Assembly: GCF_025420585.1 (NCBI RefSeq)
Contig: NZ_JAOEGB010000011.1
Location: 124,001-188,000 of the forward strand
Direction: 5' to 3'
Length of the DNA stretch: 64,000 nt
Source: Planotetraspora sp. A-T 1434
GTDB lineage: Bacteria; Actinomycetota; Actinomycetes; Streptosporangiales; Streptosporangiaceae
Positions 7,998 through 21,829 of the stretch are shown here, piece by piece. The notes below the pieces were generated by a model, which was given only the letters and a program-made list of their open reading frames with translations, made no database searches and was not told where the DNA came from. Positions within the stretch are counted from its first letter, which is position 1. Every line of letters starts with the position of its first letter. A program made the position numbers and the translations under genes.

Positions 7998-8948
7998 TCA
8001 GAGCGCCGCGGGGAGCCCGAAGCGGGGGAACACGTCCTCGCCGTACGTCGTGATCTGGGTGACCAGGCCGTCCTCGACCCGCAGGACGGCCAGCCACGAG
8101 GGCCGGTGGCCGGACTCGCCGGCCTTGCGCAGGTAGGCCGCGGCGGCGGGCTGCCGGTTGGCCCGGGTGGCGAGCATCCGCCAGTCGCCCCACGCCTCGG
8201 GGCCGACCATGGCCGGCGTCCACGCGGCGACGAACGCCTCGCGCCCCAGGATCCAGATCGGCTGCGGCGGCATGGCCTGCCACACGTCGGCCCGCAGCAC
8301 TCCCGCGAGGGCGCCCGGATCGGCCTGCTCGATGGCGTCGATGTAGCGCTGGAGCGTGGTGCGCTCCTCCGGAGTGGGCTCGGCCGGCGCCGTCCACTCC
8401 AGCCGCCGGGCCGGCAGATGCTCCTTGACCGTCGGCCTGGCCCGCTGGAGAGCGCTCTTCACCGCGGCGACGGTCAGCTCCAGCGACTCGGCCGTCTCCT
8501 GCGCCGACCAGCCGAGCACGTCGCGCAGGATGAGCACCGCACGCTGCCGGGGCGGCAGGTGCTGGATCGCGATCAGGAACGCCAGCTCGATGGTCTCCCG
8601 CTCGATCACCGCGTCGGCCGCGTCCAGAAGCACGTCGGGGTACGGCTGGAGCCAGGGGACCGCGTCCGAGGCCGGCGGGTCGACGGCGGGATCGGCCAGG
8701 ACGGGCGCCGACCGCGGTTGCGGCTCCCGAGGCTGTGCCCTGAGGTGGTCGAGGCAGGCGTTCGTGGCGATCCGGTACAGCCAGGCCCGCAGACCGGTGT
8801 CGCTCCGCAGCGTGTCCCGCCGGCGCCACGCCCGCAGGAACGTCTCCTGCACCAGGTCCTCGGCCTCGTCGAATGAGCCCAGCATCCGGTAGCAGTGCAC
8901 GTGCAGCTCCCGCCGGTGCTCCTCGATCCGCTCGCCGAAGCCGTCCAG
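7998..8948 (-). CDS. ECF sigma factor with C-terminal SnoaL-like domain
   Basis: Region sigma-2 (HCYRMLGSFDEAEDLVQETF), sigma-4 (LPPRQRAVLILRDVLGWSAQ, ELTVAAVKSALQRAR) and a C-terminal NTF2/SnoaL-like extension (RYIDAIEQADPGALAGVLRA through ITTYGEDVFPRFG) are in order. The tail usually controls sigma activity instead of a membrane anti-sigma factor. The start is odd: the frame upstream of GTG 8900 still encodes family-like residues (DGFGERIEEHRREL) but has no ATG, GTG or TTG before an in-frame stop near 9043. I extend to CTG 8948 as the likeliest non-standard start; a frameshift near 8950 is the alternative. Confidence 0.8.
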   Translation of the reverse strand: MDGFGERIEEHRRELHVHCYRMLGSFDEAEDLVQETFLRAWRRRDTLRSDTGLRAWLYRIATNACLDHLRAQPREPQPRSAPVLADPAVDPPASDAVPWLQPYPDVLLDAADAVIERETIELAFLIAIQHLPPRQRAVLILRDVLGWSAQETAESLELTVAAVKSALQRARPTVKEHLPARRLEWTAPAEPTPEERTTLQRYIDAIEQADPGALAGVLRADVWQAMPPQPIWILGREAFVAAWTPAMVGPEAWGDWRMLATRANRQPAAAAYLRKAGESGHRPSWLAVLRVEDGLVTQITTYGEDVFPRFGLPAAL

Positions 8949-10085: not shown

Positions 10086-10967
10086 TCAGTGGATTCGGGA
10101 GAGCTTGTCGGGATTGGTGACGGTGTAGATATCCCGCACGCTCTCGCCGTCTGGAGTGAGGTCGACCACGAGGACGGCGAAAGGCGAGTTCGCGACGAAC
10201 ACCACCGCGGACGGGTCGCCGTTGATCCTCCGGTATTGGATGTCCAGTCCCTCCAGGGGGCGGGCAGTGCGGGCCACGAGCAGCCGGGCGACCTTGTCAC
10301 GGCCGTGGATGGGCAGCGGACCGGCCGCCACCGCCTTGCCGCCGCCGTCGGTCCACAGGGTGACCTCCGGCGCGAGGATCTCCAGCAGGGCGTCAAGGTC
10401 GCCGCCGAACGCGGCGGCCACGAACCGCTCGGTCACCCGCCGCTGCGTGCCCGGATCCACCTGATAGCGGGGACGTCGCGCTTGGACGTGCTCACGGGCG
10501 CGGTGGGCGAGCTGCCGGACCGCCGACGGATTGCGGCCGAGCATGTCGGCGATCTCGGTATGGGCGTAGCCGAACACCTCGTGCAGGACGAACACGGCGC
10601 GTTCGAGCGGGGTCAACGTCTCCAGGACCACCAGCAGCGCCATCGACACCGACTCCGACCGCAGGGCCTCGTCGGCGGCGTCGTCGGAGGTCACGAGCGG
10701 CTCCGGCAGCCACGGCCCGAAGTACGTCTCGCGGCGGCGGCTGAGAACGGTCTGGCGGGCCAGGGCCTGGTTCACCGCGATCCGGACGAGGTAGGCCCGG
10801 GGGTTCTCGATCTGCGCCGGATCTCTGGACGCCCATGACAGCCAGGCATCCTGCAGCACGTCCTCAGTGTCGGCGACGCTGCCGAGCATGTTGTAGACGA
10901 TGGAGAACAGCAGCTCCCGATGGTCGGCGAACGCCTGCGTCGCGCTATTCGGCGGGGCATCGGACAT
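10086..10967 (-). CDS. ECF41 / SigJ-type sigma factor with SnoaL-like tail
   Basis: 293 residues: sigma-2 (HRELLFSIVYNMLGSVADTE, DVLQDAWLSW), sigma-4 (LTPLERAVFVLHEVFGYAHT, NPSAVRQLAHRARE) and a C-terminal SnoaL-like domain ending TVTNPDKLSRIH. ECF41 factors have this fused tail and typically sit beside small oxidoreductase or NmrA-like genes, as here. The ATG at 10967 follows GAGGAGG at 6-nt spacing. Its own upstream region contains TGTCACA-N17-CTCTTAAGG, matching the motif before the divergent reductase, which suggests autoregulation. Confidence 0.9.
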   Translation of the reverse strand: MSDAPPNSATQAFADHRELLFSIVYNMLGSVADTEDVLQDAWLSWASRDPAQIENPRAYLVRIAVNQALARQTVLSRRRETYFGPWLPEPLVTSDDAADEALRSESVSMALLVVLETLTPLERAVFVLHEVFGYAHTEIADMLGRNPSAVRQLAHRAREHVQARRPRYQVDPGTQRRVTERFVAAAFGGDLDALLEILAPEVTLWTDGGGKAVAAGPLPIHGRDKVARLLVARTARPLEGLDIQYRRINGDPSAVVFVANSPFAVLVVDLTPDGESVRDIYTVTNPDKLSRIH

Positions 10968-10996: not shown

Positions 10997-11029
10997 CCTT
11001 AAGAGCAGCAAACGGGCCCAGTTGTGACA
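10997..11029 (-). promoter_or_regulatory. Predicted ECF41-type promoter of the SigJ-like gene
   Basis: On the minus strand, TGTCACA (11029-11023) is followed by 17 nt and CTCTTAAGG (11005-10997), 29 nt before the ATG. TGTCACA is the known ECF41 -35 element; the -10-like part is deduced from three copies in this window. Confidence 0.65.
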
Positions 11030-11115
11030 TCCGCCCCCGAAGTGTGACCGGGATCTCAGCCGGAGAAGCCGTACAGGACCGGAAAAGCCGTACAGGAGAC
11101 GCGGACCGGGACCGA

Positions 11116-11147
11116 TGTCACACTCGGCGGCCCGTGCGGCTCTAAGG
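11116..11147 (+). promoter_or_regulatory. Predicted ECF41-type promoter of the NmrA-like gene
   Basis: TGTCACA (11116-11122), 17 nt, then CTCTAAGG (11140-11147). Spacing is identical to the divergent sigma-gene promoter. The reductase start lies 110 nt downstream. Confidence 0.6.
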
Positions 11148-11257
11148 ATGCGGCACGTAAGCCACGCGGATGAAACGGCAGCCCCTGAAGCGGCAGCCCC
11201 CGCTCCGTGCGGCCGCTGAGCGGGGGCCATCCCCTTGGATTTCACGAGGAGCATCGC

Positions 11258-12133
11258 ATGACCATTCTCGTTACCGGCGCCACCGGAACCGTCGGTGGCC
11301 ACGTCGTCCAGCACCTGCTGCGGGCGGGCCGGAAGGTGCGGGCGTTGACCCGGAACCCGGACGCCGCCCGCCTGCCTGAGGGCGTGGAGGTGGTCGCGGG
11401 CGACCTCGCCGACGTCGCCGGCCTCGCGCCCGCCTTCGAGGGCGTCACCGCCGCCCATCTGATCAATTTCAGCAGGGGCTACCGGCCTCTGAGCAACGGG
11501 CAGGAGATCGTGGACCTGGCTCTTAAGGCCGGGGTTCGCAGCGTCACCGTCCTGGGCGGCTGGGAGGAAGGCAGCCTGGAGCGTGCCGTCCAGGCCAGCT
11601 CCCTGGCGTGGACGCTCCTGCGGCCGGTGGAGTTCATGTCCAACACGCTGGCCGACTGGGGCGAGTCGCTACGCACCGACGGCGTCGTGCGCGAGCCGTA
11701 CGGCGATCGGAAGAGCCCCGCGATCGACGAGTTCGACATCGGCGCCGTGGCGGCGGTGGCGCTGACCCAGTACGGCCACGCGGGCAAGGCGTATCACCTC
11801 ACCGGGCCGGAATTGCTGACCCCCCGCGACAAGGTCCGCATCATCGCTGAGGCCACCGGCCGCGACCTGAGATTCGAGGAGCTCACGCCCGAGGAGACGC
11901 GAGAGGAGTGGGTCGTGAAGGGCAGGCCGCCGGAGCGGCTCATCTTCCACGCGTTCACCGCCAGCGCCCCCGGGATCGGTGACGCGGCCCTGGTGGAGAT
12001 GCTCCTCCGGCTGTACGGCACGTCCAACGAGCGCGGCAGGACCGTGACCGATGCCGTGGAGAAGGTCACCGGTCGCCCGCCGCGCACGTTCGCCGAGTGG
12101 GCGGCCGACCACGCCGGCCACTTCAAGCCATGA
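11258..12133 (+). CDS. NmrA-like NAD(P)H-binding oxidoreductase
   Basis: 291 residues starting ILVTGATGTVGGHVVQHLL, the GxxGxxG dinucleotide-binding motif of atypical SDR/NmrA proteins. The fold continues with WTLLRPVEFMSNTLADWG, where the usual YxxxK is absent, as in NmrA relatives. It may reduce small quinone- or aldehyde-like substrates or sense NADP. The ATG at 11258 follows GAGGA by 8 nt. It is divergent from the ECF41 sigma gene and carries the same promoter motif, so it is probably a member of that regulon. Confidence 0.88.
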   Translation: MTILVTGATGTVGGHVVQHLLRAGRKVRALTRNPDAARLPEGVEVVAGDLADVAGLAPAFEGVTAAHLINFSRGYRPLSNGQEIVDLALKAGVRSVTVLGGWEEGSLERAVQASSLAWTLLRPVEFMSNTLADWGESLRTDGVVREPYGDRKSPAIDEFDIGAVAAVALTQYGHAGKAYHLTGPELLTPRDKVRIIAEATGRDLRFEELTPEETREEWVVKGRPPERLIFHAFTASAPGIGDAALVEMLLRLYGTSNERGRTVTDAVEKVTGRPPRTFAEWAADHAGHFKP

Positions 12134-12309
12134 CCCCTGCCCGATCAGGCCTCCGGCTCCCGTCGAACGGCGGGGCCCCGGCGTGATCGAGCGACCGCCC
12201 GAGGGGATCCGGGGCGTCCGCGACCGGTCTTAGCCGCTCGGCGTACGCGTCGGCTCTTCGAGGTCGGGATTTGGCCGGTGGGGGGCGTTACTCGCTAGCC
12301 TGAGGCGCG

Positions 12310-13464
12310 ATGAACCGTTTGACGACGTCAAGAGGTGAGTTCGACCTCACCCGCTTCCCCGAGGATCCCCGCGACCCGCTTCGCGCCTGGGACGCCGCCG
12401 ACGAGTACCTGCTGCGGCACCTCGACGGAATCGACGGCGAACCGGCGGACCTCTCGGGCACCGTGGTCGTGCTGGGCGATCGGTGGGGCGCCCTGGTCAC
12501 CGCGATCGCCGATCACAGTCCGGTGCAGATCACGGACTCCTTCCTCGGCCAGGAGGCGACCCGGGCGAACCTGGCACGCAACGGGGTCGCCGCGGACGCG
12601 GTGCGGCTCCGTACGACCAGGGACACACCGCCGGAGCGGATCGACGTGCTGCTGATCCGGGTGCCCAAGAGCCTCGCGCTCCTGGAGGACCAGTTGCATC
12701 GCCTGGCACCCCACGTCCACTCGGAAACCGTGGTCATCGGCGCCGGGATGGTCACCGAGATCCACTCCTCGACGCTGAAGCTGTTCGAACGGATCCTCGG
12801 GCCGACGAGGACGTCGCTGGCGGCGAAGAAGGCGCGTCTCATCTTCTGCTCACCGGACACTCGGCTCCCCCGGGGCACGAACCCGTGGCCGCGAAGCTAC
12901 GCGCTGCCTGCCGGCATCGGAGCCGTCTCGGGCCTGACCGTCGTCAACCACGCGGGCATCTTCTGCGCCGACCGTCTCGACGTCGGCACTCGCTTCCTGC
13001 TGGAGAACCTGCCGCCGCACGACGGGCGCGAACACGTCGTCGATCTGGGCTGCGGCAACGGGGTGGTCGGGCTCGCCGCGGCACTGGCCGGCAGCGAAGC
13101 TCAGGTGACGTTCATCGACGAGTCCTATCAGGCGCTGGCCTCGGCGAAGGCCACATTCCGGGCCAATGTGGAAGCCGGCACGACCGCGGAGTTCCTGGCG
13201 GCCGACGGCATGTCGGCCATGCCGGCGGGAACGGTTGACCTGGTGCTCAACAACCCGCCGTTCCACTCGCACCGCGCGACGTCCGACGCCACGGCCTGGC
13301 GCATGTTCAACGGATCACGCGCCGCACTGCGCCGCGGGGGCGAGCTGTGGGTGGTCGGCAACCGGCACCTCGGCTACCACGTGAAGCTGCGGCGGCTCTT
13401 CGGCAACTGCGAGACCATCGCGAGCAACCCCAGGTTCGTCGTCCTGCGGGCCGTGAAGCGCTGA
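12310..13464 (+). CDS. rlmG: rRNA (guanine-N2)-methyltransferase, RlmG/RsmC family
   Basis: 384 residues with the two-domain RlmG architecture. The degenerate N-terminal methyltransferase fold begins with RFPEDPRDPLRAWDAADEYL, closely resembling the RlmG N-terminus. The active C-terminal Rossmann domain has VVDLGCGNGVVGLAAALAG for S-adenosylmethionine and NNPPFHSHR, the N-P-P-F motif of base-amino methylation. Length equals the roughly 380-residue E. coli enzyme, which methylates G1835 of 23S rRNA. Target position is by homology. The ATG at 12310 has a weak GAGG upstream. Confidence 0.85.
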   Translation: MNRLTTSRGEFDLTRFPEDPRDPLRAWDAADEYLLRHLDGIDGEPADLSGTVVVLGDRWGALVTAIADHSPVQITDSFLGQEATRANLARNGVAADAVRLRTTRDTPPERIDVLLIRVPKSLALLEDQLHRLAPHVHSETVVIGAGMVTEIHSSTLKLFERILGPTRTSLAAKKARLIFCSPDTRLPRGTNPWPRSYALPAGIGAVSGLTVVNHAGIFCADRLDVGTRFLLENLPPHDGREHVVDLGCGNGVVGLAAALAGSEAQVTFIDESYQALASAKATFRANVEAGTTAEFLAADGMSAMPAGTVDLVLNNPPFHSHRATSDATAWRMFNGSRAALRRGGELWVVGNRHLGYHVKLRRLFGNCETIASNPRFVVLRAVKR

Positions 13465-13490
13465 CGGCACACCGGCGGCCGGTTCGCCGC

Positions 13491-14345
13491 TCAGAAGAGG
13501 GTCAGCGGCTCGTCGGCCGGCATGGGCTCGGGCAGAGGATCGATCTCGGGCAGCCGGGCCCGCACGTCGTCGTGGAAACGACGGGCGAGCGTCAGCGCGT
13601 CGGCGTTGTCGGGAGTATGGATGAACACGGTCGGCGAGCGCCCCTCGCGCAGCCATTCGGTGACCGTGCCGATCCAGTGCCGCCAACCCTCAATCGTGCG
13701 CGCCGTGGAGTCACGGCCCAGGTAGCGAACGATCGGGCGGTCGGTCAGAGCGACCGACCGGCGGGGCACGCGCGGCTTCTTCGTCCATGCGTCGCGTTCG
13801 GCGTCGCTCGTGGGAGGGCTCTGGAAGAGAGTGATGGTGTCGAACGGGATCCACTCGGCGTCCACGCCTGCGAGGACTCTCTCGAGAAGCCCTGCGGACC
13901 GTACGTCGTCGAAGAACGCGCGGTGGCGCACCTCGACCGCGTACCTGTACGCCCGGGGAAGCCTGTGCAGAAAGCCCGTCAGGGTGCCGAGGTCGGCCGG
14001 GCCGAATGATCCCGGCAGTTGGACCCAGAGGGCGTGGGCTCGCGGCCCGAGTGGCTCGATCGCGTCGAGGAACGATCCGAGCTCCTCGTCGATGCCGCTT
14101 AGGCGGCGCTCGTGCGTGATCGTCTTGGGCAGCTTGACGACGAAGCGGAAGTCGGGACTGGTCTGCCGCGCCCACGACTCCACTGTGCTCCTCGCCGGAG
14201 TCGCGTAGAACGTCGTGTTGCCCTCGACCGCGTTGCACCAGGTCGCGTAGGACCGCAGGCGCTCCCCGGGAGGGAGCGGATGAGGGAGGAGACGCCCCTG
14301 CCATGGCGCGTGGGTCCACATCGCGCATCCCACATGAAGCCGCAT
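13491..14345 (-). CDS. DUF72 (YecE-like) family protein
   Basis: 284 residues. The TIM-barrel-like DUF72 hallmarks are RLHVGCAMWTHAPWQGRLLP at the start, WCNAVEGNTTFYATPARSTV, FRFVVKLPKTITHERRL and RYAVEVRHRAFFDD. The biochemical function is unknown; the fold resembles sugar-phosphate barrel enzymes. ATG 14345 is chosen because the conserved domain begins at residue 2. A longer upstream extension has no domain content, and the ribosome binding site is weak. It is convergent with the rRNA methyltransferase gene and tail-to-head with the STAND gene. Confidence 0.88.
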   Translation of the reverse strand: MRLHVGCAMWTHAPWQGRLLPHPLPPGERLRSYATWCNAVEGNTTFYATPARSTVESWARQTSPDFRFVVKLPKTITHERRLSGIDEELGSFLDAIEPLGPRAHALWVQLPGSFGPADLGTLTGFLHRLPRAYRYAVEVRHRAFFDDVRSAGLLERVLAGVDAEWIPFDTITLFQSPPTSDAERDAWTKKPRVPRRSVALTDRPIVRYLGRDSTARTIEGWRHWIGTVTEWLREGRSPTVFIHTPDNADALTLARRFHDDVRARLPEIDPLPEPMPADEPLTLF

Positions 14346-14435
14346 GCCCCAGACGCTACCAACGCCTCCTGTACGGCTCTCGCGACCGCTGGGAGAGACA
14401 AGTCCGCGGTGGACGTCAAGTGGCACATAAGGCCT

Positions 14436-17400
14436 TCAGCAGGTGGGCCGGTAGTCCACGGAGGGGAGGTAGGTGGCCCACTCTCCTCGGGTGAGGTCGC
14501 GGCCGATCTCCTGGCAGAGCTTCCCCACGAGCGGCTCAGGCTGGAGCGACCAGCGGATGATCCTGCCGTCGTCTCCTCCGGAGATCAGGTCTCCGTCGGA
14601 GGTGAAGGCCAGGCCCTTGATCGGGGCCGTGTGGCCGGTGAGCGTGACCGTCGGCCTCTTGGACGCGAGGTCCCAGACGATGATCGTGCGATCGTCGCCC
14701 GCTGACGCGAGTGCCCGGCCGTCCCTGCTGAAGGCGAGGACCTGGATCGGGGCGGTGTGGCCTGTCAGCGTGTCGTACTGCTCCCCGGTCCGCGTGTCCC
14801 AGAGTTTGACGGTCCGGTCGGCGCCCGCCGTGGCGATCAGCTTGCCGTCGGGGCTGAAGGCCACGTCGAGCACCGAGCCTTGCCTGGTCCTGAGGGAGCG
14901 GACCTCCCGGTCGTGGGCCAGGTCCCAGACGACCAGGTCTCCGGCGGGGCCGGTGGTGGCGAGCAGCGGGTCGCGCGGGCTGAACGCCAGTGCCGAGACG
15001 AGGTAGCCAGGACCCGGGAACGGCGCCTCGGCCGGGTTCTCCAGATCGTGGACGTCCCAGCGGAACCGGCCGAGCGCGGTCGCGACGAGGAAACGCCCGC
15101 GCGGATCGAAGCCGACGTCGGTGGAGGCGCCCAGCCCCCTGTACGTGATCGTGGTGAGTCTTCGCCTGCTGTCTACGTCCCAGATGGTGACCGTGTGGCT
15201 GCGGGTGACGGTGGCGAGCCGGTGTCCGTCCGGGCTGAACGCGACGGCCCGGACGTGATCGGGATGGTCGCCCAACGTGGCGATCGGGTTTCCGTGCGCG
15301 TCCCACAGCCGGACGGTCTTGTCGCTGCTCGCCGACGCGATGACCCGCCCATCCGGGCTGATCTCGATGTCGTTCACGGCCCGGCTGTGTCCACTGAACG
15401 GAGGGAGGGCGCGCTCGCGGATCACGATGGTCCGGCCCAATCCGGCCGAGGCGAGCATCGAGCCGTCGGCGCTCAAAGCGAGGGACAGCGCCTCCGTGCG
15501 GCTTCTGTCCTGATAGGTCTCGATGGGCTGCCGTCGCGCGATGTCCCAGACGGTGATCAGGCCGTCCTCGTCGGCGACGGCGATCCGACCGGCGACGGGC
15601 GCGGACATGTCCCAGGTGTACGGCGACTGCTCCGGCAGCGCGGACAGGAAGGTCACACCGTCGTGAGCGATTCGCCAGAACCGCACCCCGTGATATGCCG
15701 ATCCCGTGGCGAGGGTGCCGTCGGCGGAATCGAAGCCCAGCCTGTGGACGCCTTCGGCGCGAATCGCGGCGACCTCGGCCCCGGAGGCCACATCCCACAC
15801 GAGGGGTTTGTCCGTTCCTCCCGTGGCCGACACCAGAAATGCCCGGTCGGGGCTGAACGCGAGAGCCACGACCTCCTCCCGGTGCCCCTTCAGGGTCCGC
15901 TTGTTCCCGCTCAGCAGGTCCCACACCTCGATCGCACCCTTGCCCGCCCCGACGGCGATCTTCGTCCCGTCGGGGCTCAGCGCCATCGCGTCGGTGAGTT
16001 TCTCCCGTGACCGCCGGAACACCGGCCGGCCGGAGCTCAGGTCCCACACGACGATCGTGCCCTTGGTGGCCTCGAGCGCGGCCCCCCTGACGACGGCGGC
16101 GAGCAGCCTGCCGTCGCGGCTGAACGCCACCGCCCTGGCGTGAACCTCCCCCATCCCCGCGAGTTCGACGTGCTCGGAGAAGGTCGCGACGCGGGTGCGG
16201 CCGCGCAGGTTCCAGAGGCCGACCGTTCCGTCGGTGCCTGCCGAGGCCAGCCGTGAGCCGTCCGGACTGAACGCCACCCCGAAGACCGCCGGCCCTTCGG
16301 CGTTGAGCTCGATCCGGCGTTGCGCCGCGGCCGACACGCTCACCAGGGCGCCCCGCGTCTCGGGCTCCGGATTGAGACGGAACGCGGCAATCGCCAGCAG
16401 ACCGGCCAGATCGGGATCGGTGCCGAGGAGTGATCGGGCCTTCAGGGACAGTTGCCCGGACAGGGCGACCATCTGCTGGTGGCCGGCCTCCTGGCCCTGC
16501 CGTACGGCCACGCCTCCGCCGAGCAGGGCGAGCAGGAAGAGCGCGGCCATTCCGGCCAGAAGGCGTTGCAGGAGCCGGGTGCGGCGTCTCGTCGCGGTGC
16601 GCTCGCTCTCCTCCAGCGTACGGCTGGCCCGCAGAAAGGCGCTTTCGACGTCGTTCAGCTCCTGCGGGTGATCCTCCGCCCAGGTCCGGGCGGCGAGAAG
16701 CTGGGCGCCTCGATACAGGGCTCCCGAATCGCGCTCCAGTTCCCGCCACGTCTGCGCGGCATCGGTGAGCCGCCGATGGACGAACAGGTTCTCGCGGTCG
16801 TCGGTGAGCCAGCGGTGAAGCCGGGGCCAGGCCCGGATCAGCGCTTCGTGCGCCACGTCCACCGTCTCCTCCGCGAGGACGACCAGCCGTGCGGCCGCCA
16901 GCCGGTCCAGCACCGCGGAGGTGACTTCGGGGTCGGCCACGCCGACGAGCTCCCCCCGGGAGATGGGGCGCCTGGTGTCCTCTGTGCCGTCTCCCAGCGC
17001 GGTCAGTCTCACGAAGATCCTGCGCGCGGCCCGCTGCTCCGAGGGGGCCAGCTCGTCGAAGACCCGTTCCGCGCTCTGCGCGATGGCCCCGCGTACGCCG
17101 CCGGCCGCCTGATAGGCCGGCAGCGTGAGACTCGGGCCGGTGCGGTTCCGCCAGGTCTCCAGCAGCGCGTGCGAAACCAGCGGCAGGCTGCCCGGCTCCT
17201 CGGCGGCGTCGGCCAGCACCGTGGCCAGCAGGTCGGGTTCCACGGTGAGCCCCGCCTGGGCGGCGGGCCGTACGACGATCTCCTGAAGGTCGGCCGACGA
17301 CACCGGTCCGACGAGCATCTGGGCCTCGCCGCCCAGAGCCTCGACCAGGTCCGGATGCTGGGTCAGGTGGGCGAGGAAGTCGGCTCGTATGCCGAGAACG

Positions 17401-18728
17401 AGAACGGTGCGACGGTCGGCGCCGAGTGCCAGCTCCAGCAGTGCCTCGACGAAACGGCGGCGTTCTCCGTCGTCGGCGCACAGCGTGAAGGTCTCCTCGA
17501 ACTGGTCCACCACCAGCAGGAGGCGCGTCTGCGGCCCACCGTTCGCCGCGCCACGCAGCGCGATGTCCAGGGCGCCGTCCAGGGCGGCGTTCACGGCGCC
17601 CAGATCGCCGGGATCGCCTGACAGGGCGGCGCGGAGCACCTCGGGATCGCCGCCGGACGTCTTCGCCACCAGGTCGGCCAACGTGTCCAACGGGTGTTCG
17701 CCCGGCGTCATGACCAGGCCCCGCCACGGCCCGGCCGTACCGCTGGAGATCGCCCCCAGCAGGCCCGCGCGCAGGAGGGACGACTTTCCGCTTCCCGACG
17801 CTCCGAACACGCCGACGACCGGAAGCCGGTCGACCAGCTCGCGGAGCCGCTCGACCTGCTGAGAGCGGCCGAAGAACCATGCTTCGTCCTCCGGCTGGAA
17901 CGCCATCAGACCCCGGTACGGGCAGTCGCCCGCGGCCCATCCTTCCGTCTCCTGAGGTGTGGCGGGCATCCGCGACGACGGGCCCAGGGCCGGGAGGAGG
18001 TCCTCGTCACCGCGGAGCATCGCCTCGTGCAGACGTTGGAGCACCGGGCCGGGTTCGATGCCGAGCTGAGCGTTCAACAGGTCGCGGGTGCGGCGGAAGA
18101 CCTCCAGTGCCTCCACCTGACGGCCGGACCGGTACAGCGCGAGCATGAGATGCGCGCGCAGACTCTCTCGGTACGGATGCTCCCGGGTGAGGTCGGCCAG
18201 CTCGGCGGCCACCTCGATGTGCCGGCCCAGAGCGAGCCCGGCCTCCGCCAGCCGCTCGTGAGCGGTGAGCCGCGACTCCTCCAGCCGCCGGGCCTCCTCG
18301 GCGATGGACGCGCAGTCGGCGAACCCCGCGAACGCCGGCCCCCGCCACAGGCTGAGCGCCGCGCGCAGCCGGTCACGGGCCGGTTCGAGATCTCCCCGGT
18401 CCAGGGCCGCGCTCCCCTGCGCGGCGAGGCTGCGGAAACGCGCCGAGTCGAGCGCGTCGGTGATGATCGCATACCCGCCCGGCCGTCCAGGCAGGACATG
18501 GGCGCCGAACATCCGCCGCAGCTGGTGGACGTAGAGGTGGATGTTGCGCCGCGCGGACGCGGGCGGCTGATCACCCCAGACGGCGGCGATCAGCCAGTCG
18601 ATCGAGACCGGCTGTCCGGCCTTGGACAACAGCGCGGCAAGGGTGAGCTGAAGCTTGGGGGCTCCGCTGACAGCAACCAGCCGGCCGTCACGGGAGACGC
18701 CGAGCGGTCCGAGAACGTGAAATTCCAC
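14436..18728 (-). CDS. SARP/BTAD-nSTAND-WD40 giant regulatory protein
   Basis: 1430 residues. Residues 1-95 form an OmpR-like winged helix of the SARP type (EFHVLGPLGVSRDGRLV, HLYVHQLRRMFG), 100-245 a BTAD helical domain, and about 285-680 an nSTAND1 NTPase with Walker A GASGSGKSS near 314 and Walker B LLLVVDQFEETF near 406. A hydrophobic segment near 720-740 (LLAGMAALFLLALLGGG) is probably membrane-spanning. About 800-1400 hold many WD40 repeats (AFSPDGSRLASAGTDGTVGL, WDLASKRPTVTLTGHTAPIK). Such proteins are AfsR-like activators or STAND switches triggered by WD40 ligand binding. GTG 18728 follows GCGGAG. A cytochrome P450 lies divergently. Confidence 0.92.
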   Translation of the reverse strand: MEFHVLGPLGVSRDGRLVAVSGAPKLQLTLAALLSKAGQPVSIDWLIAAVWGDQPPASARRNIHLYVHQLRRMFGAHVLPGRPGGYAIITDALDSARFRSLAAQGSAALDRGDLEPARDRLRAALSLWRGPAFAGFADCASIAEEARRLEESRLTAHERLAEAGLALGRHIEVAAELADLTREHPYRESLRAHLMLALYRSGRQVEALEVFRRTRDLLNAQLGIEPGPVLQRLHEAMLRGDEDLLPALGPSSRMPATPQETEGWAAGDCPYRGLMAFQPEDEAWFFGRSQQVERLRELVDRLPVVGVFGASGSGKSSLLRAGLLGAISSGTAGPWRGLVMTPGEHPLDTLADLVAKTSGGDPEVLRAALSGDPGDLGAVNAALDGALDIALRGAANGGPQTRLLLVVDQFEETFTLCADDGERRRFVEALLELALGADRRTVLVLGIRADFLAHLTQHPDLVEALGGEAQMLVGPVSSADLQEIVVRPAAQAGLTVEPDLLATVLADAAEEPGSLPLVSHALLETWRNRTGPSLTLPAYQAAGGVRGAIAQSAERVFDELAPSEQRAARRIFVRLTALGDGTEDTRRPISRGELVGVADPEVTSAVLDRLAAARLVVLAEETVDVAHEALIRAWPRLHRWLTDDRENLFVHRRLTDAAQTWRELERDSGALYRGAQLLAARTWAEDHPQELNDVESAFLRASRTLEESERTATRRRTRLLQRLLAGMAALFLLALLGGGVAVRQGQEAGHQQMVALSGQLSLKARSLLGTDPDLAGLLAIAAFRLNPEPETRGALVSVSAAAQRRIELNAEGPAVFGVAFSPDGSRLASAGTDGTVGLWNLRGRTRVATFSEHVELAGMGEVHARAVAFSRDGRLLAAVVRGAALEATKGTIVVWDLSSGRPVFRRSREKLTDAMALSPDGTKIAVGAGKGAIEVWDLLSGNKRTLKGHREEVVALAFSPDRAFLVSATGGTDKPLVWDVASGAEVAAIRAEGVHRLGFDSADGTLATGSAYHGVRFWRIAHDGVTFLSALPEQSPYTWDMSAPVAGRIAVADEDGLITVWDIARRQPIETYQDRSRTEALSLALSADGSMLASAGLGRTIVIRERALPPFSGHSRAVNDIEISPDGRVIASASSDKTVRLWDAHGNPIATLGDHPDHVRAVAFSPDGHRLATVTRSHTVTIWDVDSRRRLTTITYRGLGASTDVGFDPRGRFLVATALGRFRWDVHDLENPAEAPFPGPGYLVSALAFSPRDPLLATTGPAGDLVVWDLAHDREVRSLRTRQGSVLDVAFSPDGKLIATAGADRTVKLWDTRTGEQYDTLTGHTAPIQVLAFSRDGRALASAGDDRTIIVWDLASKRPTVTLTGHTAPIKGLAFTSDGDLISGGDDGRIIRWSLQPEPLVGKLCQEIGRDLTRGEWATYLPSVDYRPTC

Positions 18729-19248
18729 CCAAACTCCGCCCCCATCGGACTTCGGAATGAAGAATCCTGGACCGCCGCCCGCTTGTCAATCGTTCAGTCA
18801 GGTGGGAGTCCATGCCCGTGCGAGACCGTCCCGCGCGGTACGTGCGGAGTAAGTGCCTCGACGCGAAGGACGACCCGCACGCCGGCACGCCATGCGGACG
18901 CCGCCCCTGCGCGGGCGAATCAGCCCGTCCACGTCCGACTTCAGGCGGGAACACATATGAGGTTACGCTTCTTCTCGGTCGCGAAGATATAAATGGTCCG
19001 CGGCTGACAGGTGGAGATCCGCAACCTCCACCTTCGTGTAGCTGCGCCGAATGGCCGGATGGAACGCGGTCCCCGGCAGTTCGGGTAGACACCGGCGATC
19101 CGCCATGCCTCCCTGGCCAGGCAGCCGACAGGCGCAGGTGATGACAGCGAATCCGAGCGGAACCGATTCGCCTGTTGACGGGCAGCACGGCATTTCGTAC
19201 GTTCCGCGTGGGCGGTCCCGTGGGCGCCCCACGCCGGAAGGGGTTGCG
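18729..19248. other. Divergent regulatory region between the SARP-STAND and P450 genes
   Basis: About 520 bases. Open frames on both strands lack family similarity and ribosome binding sites. It probably holds both promoters and SARP target repeats; I looked for SARP-type heptameric direct repeats and could not identify a convincing set. Confidence 0.4.
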
Positions 19249-20466
19249 ATGACCACCGAGCTGGATCCGAACGGGACTTGGCCAGACATCGTGCCAGGCC
19301 CACTTGCCACGCCGCCACCGGAGTTCGCCCGCAGGCAGGAGTCGGGGACACTGGAGCCGGCGACCATGCCCAGCGGCGACCGCGTCCCGGTGGCCGTCAG
19401 GTACGAGGACGTCCGCGCCCTGCTGGCCTCGCCCCACTCCAGCCGCAACCTTCGCATCCCGGGACTGCCACGTTTGGTGAGCGGCATCGGCATCGATGAC
19501 GACCCAGACGCGCTGATCAATCAGGACCCGCCCGAGCACACCCGCTATCGCCGGATCATGCACGGAACATTCACCCCGCGTCAGATCGAACCGTGGCGCC
19601 CCCGCATCGCGAAGATCGCCCAAGACCTCCTCGACGGCCTGGGCGAGGACTTCGACCTGGTCCAGGAGTACGCGCTGCGGCTACCGGGCCAGGTCATCTG
19701 TTTGATGCTCGGCGTGCCGATGGGCCACTACAAGCGGTTCGTCCGGTGGACGGACATGTTCCTGACCACCTCCACGGCCACCGAGCAGGCGCGCTACGAG
19801 GGCTACACCGAATTCATGGCCTATGCCGCCGAGTTGGTCGCGCAGCATCGCGCCGAGCCCGGCGAGGACCTCATCGACCTGCTCATCCAGGCCAGGGACG
19901 AGGACGACCGGCTGTCGGAGGGCGAGCTGGTCAACACCGTGTTCTCTCTCATCACGGCCGGTTACGAGACGACGGCGTCGATGATCGCCCGCGGTGTCTT
20001 CCGGCTGCTCCTCCACCCCGGCCAGTGGGCGGAGCTGGTCGCGGACCCGGCCCTGACGGCCACCGCCGTCGAGGAGATCCTCCGCTTCGACGGACCGCCC
20101 GCCAGTGCCTTCATGCGCCGGATGACGAAGGACACCGACCTCCCCAGCGGCGGCTCACTGAGCGCGGGGACGGTCGTCATGCCGAATCTGAACGCGGCCA
20201 ACCACGACCCGCGGGCATTTCCCGAGCCCGGCCGGTTCGACATCCACCGCTTCACCGATCACCCTCCGAACCCGCACGTGGCATTCGGGTACGGTGCGCA
20301 TCGCTGCCTGGCCGCCAGCCTCGCCAGGGTCGAGCTCACTGAGGCGATCAGAGCCCTGGTCACTCAGCGCCCCACTCTCCGCCTGATCTCCTCACCCGAG
20401 TCGGTGACCTGGACCGATGGCCTGGTCTACCGGCCGGTCGCCATGCATGTCACCACGGGTGGATAG
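19249..20466 (+). CDS. Cytochrome P450 (CYP105/107-like bacterial class I)
   Basis: 405 residues, normal for soluble bacterial P450s. The oxygen-activation helix has ITAGYETTASM, the K-helix EXXR is VEEILRF, and the heme-binding loop FGYGAHRCLAASLAR contains the cysteine ligand. Substrate contacts cannot be read. ATG 19249 follows GGAAGGGG; the frame upstream is noncoding. No ferredoxin gene is adjacent, so electron donors must come from elsewhere. Being divergent from a SARP-type regulator suggests secondary-metabolism-related control, but no other biosynthetic genes are nearby. Confidence 0.92.
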   Translation: MTTELDPNGTWPDIVPGPLATPPPEFARRQESGTLEPATMPSGDRVPVAVRYEDVRALLASPHSSRNLRIPGLPRLVSGIGIDDDPDALINQDPPEHTRYRRIMHGTFTPRQIEPWRPRIAKIAQDLLDGLGEDFDLVQEYALRLPGQVICLMLGVPMGHYKRFVRWTDMFLTTSTATEQARYEGYTEFMAYAAELVAQHRAEPGEDLIDLLIQARDEDDRLSEGELVNTVFSLITAGYETTASMIARGVFRLLLHPGQWAELVADPALTATAVEEILRFDGPPASAFMRRMTKDTDLPSGGSLSAGTVVMPNLNAANHDPRAFPEPGRFDIHRFTDHPPNPHVAFGYGAHRCLAASLARVELTEAIRALVTQRPTLRLISSPESVTWTDGLVYRPVAMHVTTGG

Positions 20467-20524
20467 CAGCGGGACGGCCGAGCGGGGCTGCCGTGCCGTA
20501 CTTTCCGCACGTTGGCCACATCGA

Positions 20525-20568
20525 GCCGCCAACGCCCGGCCAGTACGGCTCGGCCGGGCGTTGGCGGC
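20525..20568. terminator. Bidirectional terminator between P450 and lipoprotein genes
   Basis: Perfect 17-bp arms at 20525-20541 and 20552-20568 with a 10-nt loop, placed between two convergent stop codons (20466 and 20574). Confidence 0.85.
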
Positions 20569-20573
20569 TGGGC

Positions 20574-21176
20574 TCATTTGTTGCCGCTGAGCCGCTTCAG
20601 ATCGTCCGATGTTAGAGGGACTGGGTTCTCCTGCAATTTGACAGGCTCTCCCGTGGCGTTCAGGGGGTACTGGCCCTGCAGCGGGTTGAGCAGGGCTGCG
20701 GGGGCATCTGGATATGTCTGGAGGAAGAGGACGTAGCCCTGGTTCTGCTGGAGGGCGTGCTCCTCCTCCTCCTGGTAGGTGATGCCGTTGAGCGTTCCAC
20801 CCAGTTGCTGGACGTCGATCGACTGGCCGACCTGCGCGGCGCCCTTGTAGACCTTGGTCACAGAGGCCTTGTAGATGCTGATCACCACCGGGTCGGGCGG
20901 CTCCTGCGGCGTTGGGGCTCCGGCCGCGGGGTTGAGTTTCGGATCGGCGCCGGCCGTGTCAGGCTTCAACTCCTGGACGCTGACCGGCTGAGTGCTCACG
21001 GTGGCCTCGACGATGAGGTCGGCCGTATTGAACAGGTTGTCCGCCGAGTCGTACGCGGGATAGTCAGCGTGGTACGTGATGACTTTGTCGCCGTTGGAGT
21101 TCGCACAGGCTCCTAAAAACGCCGTCGATGCCAGGAGAGCGAGAGGCACGACAAGCCGCCGCGAAATCGTCTTCAT
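20574..21176 (-). CDS. Secreted lipoprotein, unknown function
   Basis: 200 residues. The signal peptide RRLVVPLALLASTAFLGAC ends in a lipobox (LGAC) with the lipidated cysteine. The mature part is acidic, with a proline-rich linker (PAAGAPTPQEPPDPV) and a beta-rich core (SIYKASVTKVYKG, NQGYVLFLQTYPDAP). I do not recognise the domain. ATG 21176 follows GAGAGGA. It starts 13 nt after the metalloprotease gene ends, so the two form an operon likely driven from the ECF41-like site at 21797-21829. Confidence 0.8.
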   Translation of the reverse strand: MKTISRRLVVPLALLASTAFLGACANSNGDKVITYHADYPAYDSADNLFNTADLIVEATVSTQPVSVQELKPDTAGADPKLNPAAGAPTPQEPPDPVVISIYKASVTKVYKGAAQVGQSIDVQQLGGTLNGITYQEEEEHALQQNQGYVLFLQTYPDAPAALLNPLQGQYPLNATGEPVKLQENPVPLTSDDLKRLSGNK

Positions 21177-21189
21177 ATCGGTCCTCTCT

Positions 21190-21756
21190 TTAGTAGTAGG
21201 CGTTGACGTCGTTGATGTCGTGGGACTGCGGCTTGGTCATGGTGTTCCGGTTGCGGCAGTAGCTCATGATCGCGTCAGTACAGTGGGAGCCGTCGTTGAT
21301 GTCGTTGAGGCTCAGCCGGTGGCCGAACTCATGGGTGAACGAACTGGTGACGAAGTTCGACCAGTTGCTCGCGTCACGGGTTATCGTCCGCGCGTTGAGC
21401 TGGATGCGGAAGGAGCGGGTGGTCCACGTCATGTAGGGCGTATACAGGCCGTACCAGGTGGCGGAGTAGGACGCCGCCACCAGATATGAGGGGGACGAAC
21501 TCGACTTGGTGATGTACGCCGCGGTCGGAGACGCGTTCCAGTTGATCAACGCCTGGTTCAGCGGGGTCATCCACGTACTGTTGTAGCTGTAGGGCTTGAT
21601 GGTGAAGCTCGGCGACGAACCACCGCCGGAGTAGTGGTGCGCGGAGGCCGGCGACACTGTGACGGCCAGCATTGCCACGACCGCCCCCGTGGTCAGCAGC
21701 ATCCGACTCGTGACACGCCTTGGACCGTCTTTTCGGTATGCGAGATGGAACGCCAT
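21190..21756 (-). CDS. Secreted matrixin/snapalysin-like zinc metalloprotease
   Basis: 188 residues. A Tat/Sec-type signal (RRVTSRMLLTTGAVVAMLAV, then SPASA) precedes a small catalytic domain with HEFGHRLSLND, matching HExxHxxxxxD of snapalysin-type metzincin relatives, and a downstream methionine-turn candidate DAIMSYC. It would act outside the cell on proteins or peptides. ATG 21756 is used. The GGAG site lies about 10 nt upstream and is actually better spaced for an out-of-frame ATG at 21760, so initiation may be inefficient. The lipoprotein gene follows after 13 nt. Confidence 0.82.
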   Translation of the reverse strand: MAFHLAYRKDGPRRVTSRMLLTTGAVVAMLAVTVSPASAHHYSGGGSSPSFTIKPYSYNSTWMTPLNQALINWNASPTAAYITKSSSSPSYLVAASYSATWYGLYTPYMTWTTRSFRIQLNARTITRDASNWSNFVTSSFTHEFGHRLSLNDINDGSHCTDAIMSYCRNRNTMTKPQSHDINDVNAYY

Positions 21757-21796
21757 GCATCAGCTCCGGAATTCGGTGAGGTACTGCTGTGTCACC

Positions 21797-21829
21797 GCTT
21801 AAGAGCCCCAGCGCCCCCAGAACGTGACA
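21797..21829 (-). promoter_or_regulatory. Predicted ECF41-type promoter of the protease-lipoprotein operon
   Basis: TGTCACG (21829-21823), 17 nt, CTCTTAAGC (21805-21797) on the minus strand, 41 nt before the protease ATG. This is the same layout as at the SigJ-like locus, one base different in each box. Confidence 0.6.

Follow-up and report, generated by a model that had tools for sequence, protein, structure and literature searches.

Predicted promoters of an ECF41 sigma factor with a shifted -10 element at its own locus and at a metzincin-lipoprotein operon of Planotetraspora

The stretch of 64,000 nucleotides from the soil actinobacterium Planotetraspora sp. A-T 1434 that was analysed here (the window) contains three copies of a promoter-like motif, which precede a gene for a sigma factor of the ECF41 group, the divergently transcribed NmrA-like gene beside it, and an operon coding for a zinc protease and a lipoprotein. 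We take these sites to be promoters of a single ECF41 factor from an actinobacterial clade with altered specificity, which would also drive an NmrA-DoxX operon and the operon for the protease, a metzincin, and the lipoprotein, of predicted NTR/TIMP fold; we assign this reading a probability of about 0.8. It builds on the observed sites, their conservation, the clade formed by the sigma factors, the pattern of the regulon across genomes, the conservation of the protease-lipoprotein operon and a fold prediction for the lipoprotein. The observation behind the original prediction was sound and its core interpretation correct, and it needs correcting in that the change in the -10 element is a one-base shift throughout the clade, the regulon exceeds three promoters, and the protease link is specific to the lineage and involves a partner with a predicted TIMP fold.

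The sites in the window and their proposed sigma factor

The features under discussion are the following, the last of which lies elsewhere in the genome.

10086..10967, reverse strand: ECF41/SigJ-type sigma factor with a C-terminal SnoaL-like domain, of the CTC -10 clade (Pfam, NCBIfam, PDB, tree)
10998..11029, reverse strand: predicted own-gene promoter of the ECF41 gene (-35 TGTCAC at 11024-11029, N18, -10 CTCTTAAG at 10998-11005)
11116..11147, forward strand: predicted divergent promoter of the NmrA-like gene (-35 TGTCAC at 11116-11121, N18, -10 CTCTAAGG at 11140-11147)
11258..12133, forward strand: NmrA-like NAD(P)-binding protein, the 'COE' partner of the ECF41 factor (Pfam NmrA, 5.6e-23; NAD_binding_10)
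20574..21176, reverse strand: lipoprotein with a lipobox ending LGAC (Cys24) and a predicted NTR/TIMP-like fold; gap of 13 nt to the protease gene upstream
21190..21756, reverse strand: secreted matrixin-like metzincin zinc protease with an N-terminal signal peptide (HEFGHRLSLND, Met-turn AIM)
21798..21829, reverse strand: predicted promoter of the protease-lipoprotein operon (-35 TGTCAC at 21824-21829, N18, -10 CTCTTAAG at 21798-21805)
C54:105461: predicted fourth site, promoter of an NmrA-DoxX operon, about 46 nt before the NmrA-like start codon (one mismatch)

All three copies are present in the window as had been claimed, each correctly oriented and with identical spacing; what was originally written as TGTCACA/G-N17 is the same spacing as TGTCAC-N18, one extra base having been counted into the -35 element. 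The -10 element ends about 30 nt from the ATG at 10967 in the ECF41 site, about 110 nt from the ATG at 11258 in the NmrA site and about 41 nt from the ATG at 21756 in the protease site, where a GGAG ribosome site precedes the start codon. The -35 element agrees, as proposed, with known ECF41 promoters, the consensus of which combines TGTCACA with a spacer of 16 +/- 1 bp (PMC3426412). Two of the three sites contain the palindrome CTTAAG, as might be expected if a repressor or activator bound the repeated motif as its operator and the motif were no sigma factor promoter. We regard this as highly improbable: the palindrome is missing in the orthologs, which read CTCTnAGG, the sites are spaced, oriented and placed ahead of start codons in the manner of promoters, and their -35 element is the ECF41-specific one of Wecke et al. 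(PMC3426412).

The product of the ECF41 gene contains the Pfam domains Sigma70_r2 (PF04542) and Sigma70_r4_2 (PF08281), with no region 3, and SnoaL_2 was detected in its tail with an e-value of 8e-6 and 26.8 bits, just below Pfam's 27. Its identity as an ECF41/SigJ factor is borne out by the NCBIfam SigJ model NF007214 (295 bits against a cutoff of 271) and by Mycobacterium tuberculosis SigJ (5xe7; e-value 1e-45), to which residues 13-288 align, tail included. Regions 2 and 4, the SnoaL-like tail, a neighboring COE gene and the TGTCACA -35 element, all features of the ECF41 group, are found together here, and the -10 sequence CGTC is a consensus of this group and no membership criterion, TGTT being also known. 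The COE genes of ECF41 factors code for a carboxymuconolactone decarboxylase, an oxidoreductase or an NmrA/epimerase protein. In having sigma2 and sigma4 followed by a SnoaL-like tail, a divergent COE gene of the NmrA type, a TGTCACA -35 element, a spacer of about 16 bp and predicted autoregulation, the factor resembles M. tuberculosis SigJ and the Ecf41 proteins of B. licheniformis and R. sphaeroides; it differs from them in the -10 element, which is CGTC (or TGTT) in known ECF41 systems and [G/C]CTC throughout its own clade. The proposal that the motif serves as the autoregulatory and divergent promoter of the ECF41 factor is supported, as a prediction, by its conservation at orthologous loci. 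A second SnoaL-tailed ECF sigma factor, matching the SigX5/TIGR02960 family above cutoff, is encoded at 7998-8900 on the reverse strand, about 1.2 kb downstream of the ECF41 gene, and adjoins a beta-lactamase/esterase-like reading frame.

In the window, TGTCACN17-19CTCT has 3 matches as against 0.31 expected, and none of 100 shuffled sequences reached 3. Pattern searches of the 7.78 Mb genome, from which all genome-wide counts derive, recovered only two exact copies of the full 14-base motif, at the ECF41 and protease sites within the window, and a single further match with one mismatch, at C54:105461. The genome-wide search with the short motif that the original prediction had suggested gave 17 matches; 13 of them do not precede regulon genes, and at least 7 of these 13 are inside long coding ORFs. 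The short motif TGTCAC-N17-19-CTCT was rejected as a definition of the regulon on account of its many matches within genes.

Given that the template of the original prediction had been the window itself, we trained a matrix on other genomes only, using 78 promoters at orthologous ECF41 loci and excluding the genome under study. With this matrix the top three sites of the window were those of NmrA (26.3 bits), the protease (21.5 bits) and ECF41 (19.0 bits), separated by 11 bits from the next-best site at 7.9, and the site at C54:105461 scored 27.7. When 200 Mb of sequence was simulated, chance produced scores of 21.5 or more at a rate of 0.006 per window and 0.8 per genome. Genome-wide the matrix score alone is therefore no proof; the weight for the window sites rests on their position before a start codon within the window, rather than on the genome-wide score. 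One in-gene site, C2:102103 (L033), scores 22.0, with the protease site at 21.5, and lies in a long GC3-biased reading frame; this match probably arose by chance.

A one-base shift of the -10 element across the clade

Eighty related loci were fetched, 57 of which are orthologous loci of the clade. The promoter of the ECF41 gene was found in 49 of these 57 and the divergent site in 31; CTC occupies the -10 element in 49/49 of the former and 29/31 of the latter, and CGTC in none of either. Across the ECF41-gene promoters CTC falls at N16-20 from TGTCAC, the offsets counted being N19 in 34 cases and N18 in 15. The departure from the group's CGTC, which had been remarked upon for the window, thus extends to the entire clade, from which the consensus -10 is absent. 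The description of this element as longer held up less well: CTC does differ from GTC, but the TTAAG that trails it is not kept in the clade, which has CTCTnAGG. More distant ECF41 factors and paralogs from the same genome show (C/T)GTC at the position equivalent to CTC. Aligned to the group promoter TGTCACA-N16-CGTC reported by Wecke et al. 2012 (PMC3426412), the -10 change is essentially of one base, from GTC to CTC, and the promoter predicted for the clade is TGTCACA-N16/17-[G/C]CTC in place of the group form.

The sigma factors with CTC promoters constitute one clade with branch support of 99/97, recovered in 98% of bootstrap trees. Their region 2.4 differs sharply from that of the GTC types at positions 65 (V in CTC types/T in GTC types), 70 (A/N), 72 (Q or R/L) and 77 (R/A). 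These changes fit a change in -10 specificity and may have caused it, a role that we infer only, because the residue differences are confounded by phylogeny.

The genome codes for several ECF41-type paralogs that share the TGTCAC -35 element. The promoters could therefore be genuine and be read mainly by another of these paralogs, for example the one at C54:69531, which lies 35 kb from the fourth site. We consider this quite unlikely, as those paralogs with recognizable own or nearby promoters have -10 elements of the GTC type, the GTC/CTC split tracks sigma phylogeny across genera, and CTC sites with an extended -35 element are rare where the clade of the window factor is absent (see below). 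Transcription by the ECF41 factor of the window itself is the reading that we prefer.

Beside some GTC-type ECF41 genes (L167, L171 and L049, the C54 paralog of the genome under study) we noted divergent sites of the form TGTCACA-N-GTCGCCGGCATCTC, which are nearly identical across three genera and possibly represent another -10 variant or an additional element.

Predicted targets away from the ECF41 locus

The original set of three members proved too small. The match at C54:105461 is situated elsewhere in the genome, upstream of another NmrA-like gene and the DoxX-like gene that comes after it, and as it too is within one mismatch of the full motif, at least four promoters are predicted. Extended sites, TGTCACA[CT]T..CTCTnA, number 37 in 44 genomes bearing the clade as opposed to 1 in 33 clade-free genomes from the same family or order (37 among 94 versus 1 among 35 pattern matches; Fisher p = 2e-5), with many of the 37 being the ECF41 and divergent promoters themselves. 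Among the non-local ones, sites precede DoxX-like genes in a Streptosporangium and two Nonomuraea, haloalkane-dehalogenase-like genes in two Nonomuraea, and other enzymes and an MMPL transporter in single cases; DoxX-like targets recur in three genera. Of the DoxX homologs retrieved by protein search, with at least 64% identity, eight copies carry the promoter, in four clade-bearing genomes (that under study, G064, G065 and G066), whereas it is lacking from one copy in G003, which has the clade, and from copies in G026 and G037, which do not, in a comparison that is not fully independent because some homologs were first found via the motif. The distribution of these sequences suggests that the factors of the clade control multi-target regulons. 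The regulon has an expanded form in the two Nonomuraea genomes G064 (L214-L219) and G065 (L220-L225): each contains at least nine CTC-type sites, DoxX-like targets recur, and one additional ECF41-like gene start is present (L224).

In the study of Wecke et al. 2012 (PMC3426412) the COE genes were the only targets detected, and RpoE9 of S. meliloti has a single target (PMC6180224). A predicted regulon of multiple promoters hence sets the clade apart from the ECF41 factors of B. licheniformis, R. sphaeroides and S. meliloti, with their single targets. The single-target rule does not appear to be universal, since RpoE10 of Azospirillum brasilense, also an ECF41 factor, is credited with control of lateral flagella and motility (Dubey et al. 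2020, as cited in PMC8999054); going by that citation, it is alike in having effects beyond the COE gene and its targets are unrelated to those predicted here. Our search of the literature for a connection between ECF41 and DoxX found nothing.

The metzincin-lipoprotein operon and its probable recruitment

The protease of the window has the zinc site HEFGHRLSLND, which corresponds to HEXXHXX(G)XX(H/D) with S replacing G, and the Met-turn AIM. Its homologs L182 and L152 match Pfam Peptidase_M10 above the gathering threshold, and the window protein itself has a weak match to M43; an AlphaFold model made with three homologs reached a pLDDT of only 29. The assignment to the metzincins is accordingly made from the motifs and from the Pfam matches of relatives. 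For the lipoprotein no convincing match to a Pfam family was found. Its AlphaFold model, made from three sequences and containing disordered stretches, has a mean pLDDT of 69.6 with the best blocks above 90, and the leading Foldseek matches of this model are NTR domains and TIMPs, with VIA Z scores of 10.9 to the NTR domain of PCOLCE1 and 10.7 to N-TIMP-3, the latter over 115 residues. The Pfam matches in 23 members of the lipoprotein family include no model of the TIMP family (PF00965), and the sole invariant cysteine across the members is Cys24 of the lipobox. As a profile search against PDB sequences gave no TIMP match, the relation is one of fold only: going by the model, the lipoprotein shares the fold of TIMPs, which are metalloprotease inhibitors of animals, without belonging to their family. 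The original call of a lipoprotein was right as to the lipobox, and what it missed is the role that the predicted fold and the adjacency point to, as the second half of a metzincin/TIMP-like pair. The two genes are adjacent in 23/23 loci from 22 genomes. Among 347 genomes of the order, 22 have the pair (20574-21756 in the window, and loci L275-L296), and most of these belong to one genus.

A matching pair is known from Listeria, where the metzincin of Mtz-Tim is implicated in cleaving and releasing a TIMP-like lipoprotein, with the cell wall becoming more lysis-sensitive (PMC8235301). Like Mtz-Tim of L. monocytogenes and other Gram-positives (Boichis et al. 2021, PMC8235301), the operon combines a secreted metzincin with HEXXHXXxXXH/D and a Met-turn with a lipobox protein directly after it, of TIMP-like structure (predicted in our case), which has no promoter of its own, and the genes are always paired. 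We therefore name it, by anatomy, an actinobacterial metzincin/TIMP-like pair. The two systems differ in that Mtz-Tim is governed by a CI/Cro-type switch, as against predicted ECF41 control at a locus on an actinobacterial chromosome.

The link to secreted proteolysis advanced in the original prediction stands for the source genome, as a prediction, and does not generalize, for the ECF41 promoter is absent from 22/22 other operon copies found. This includes G003 and G068, which carry both the operon and the sigma factor clade; conversely, no such protease occurs in three Planotetraspora genomes whose sigma factors, at 81-86% identity, are the closest. A general link between ECF41 and the protease was rejected on these grounds.

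The same absence would be expected if the ECF41 and NmrA sites were genuine and the protease site a chance match, with the operon being read from another promoter; about 0.8 equally good sites per genome by chance, the in-gene match at C2:102103 that scores as well, and the frequency of the loose motif within genes point the same way. Still, only 0.006 such sites are expected in 64 kb, the full 14-base motif has just one other exact match in 7.78 Mb, and the site is correctly oriented, being followed by a GGAG ribosome site and, at a distance of about 41 nt, a start codon. Moreover, while promoters upstream of the other copies vary and ten of the 22 have a clear sigma-70-like one of the type TTGACA-N17/18-CATACT, none was found upstream of the operon in the window, where the best candidate has 3 mismatches. 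On this evidence we judge a chance origin of the protease site unlikely. Recruitment of the operon to the ECF41 regulon is the explanation that we favor, and since the other 22 copies are without the promoter, it is probably a recent, lineage-specific event rather than an ECF41 rule.

According to this model, the ECF41 factor would transcribe its own gene and the divergent NmrA-like gene, the usual loop of ECF41 and COE, and in the source genome also the unlinked NmrA-DoxX operon and the metzincin-lipoprotein operon. As in the ECF41 factors already studied, activity may be gated by the SnoaL-like tail in response to a small-molecule or redox signal, in which case induction would tie a redox or electrophile response inside the cell to surface remodelling. 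Going by Mtz-Tim of Listeria, the lipoprotein is probably a tether, an inhibitor or a substrate of the protease. On balance we lean towards a history in which the clade switched its -10 element from GTC to CTC through the changes in region 2.4, keeping its promoters separate from those of the GTC-type paralogs, and acquired multi-gene regulons, that of the Planotetraspora under study having captured the metzincin/TIMP-fold pair and thereby coupled a SnoaL-gated sigma factor to surface proteolysis.

ECF41 is a large and poorly understood group of sigma factors, described with one promoter code and usually one target. A -10 element shifted by one base, a co-varying region 2.4 and GTC-type paralogs in the same cell amount to a natural experiment in the avoidance of cross-talk between sigma factors, and the predicted regulon supplies unlinked ECF41 targets in the form of DoxX, haloalkane-dehalogenase-like and NmrA genes. 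With this operon, the metzincin/TIMP-like pairs of bacteria, which have been little studied, reach into more than 20 actinobacterial genomes, and for one such pair a sigma factor is proposed as a regulator.
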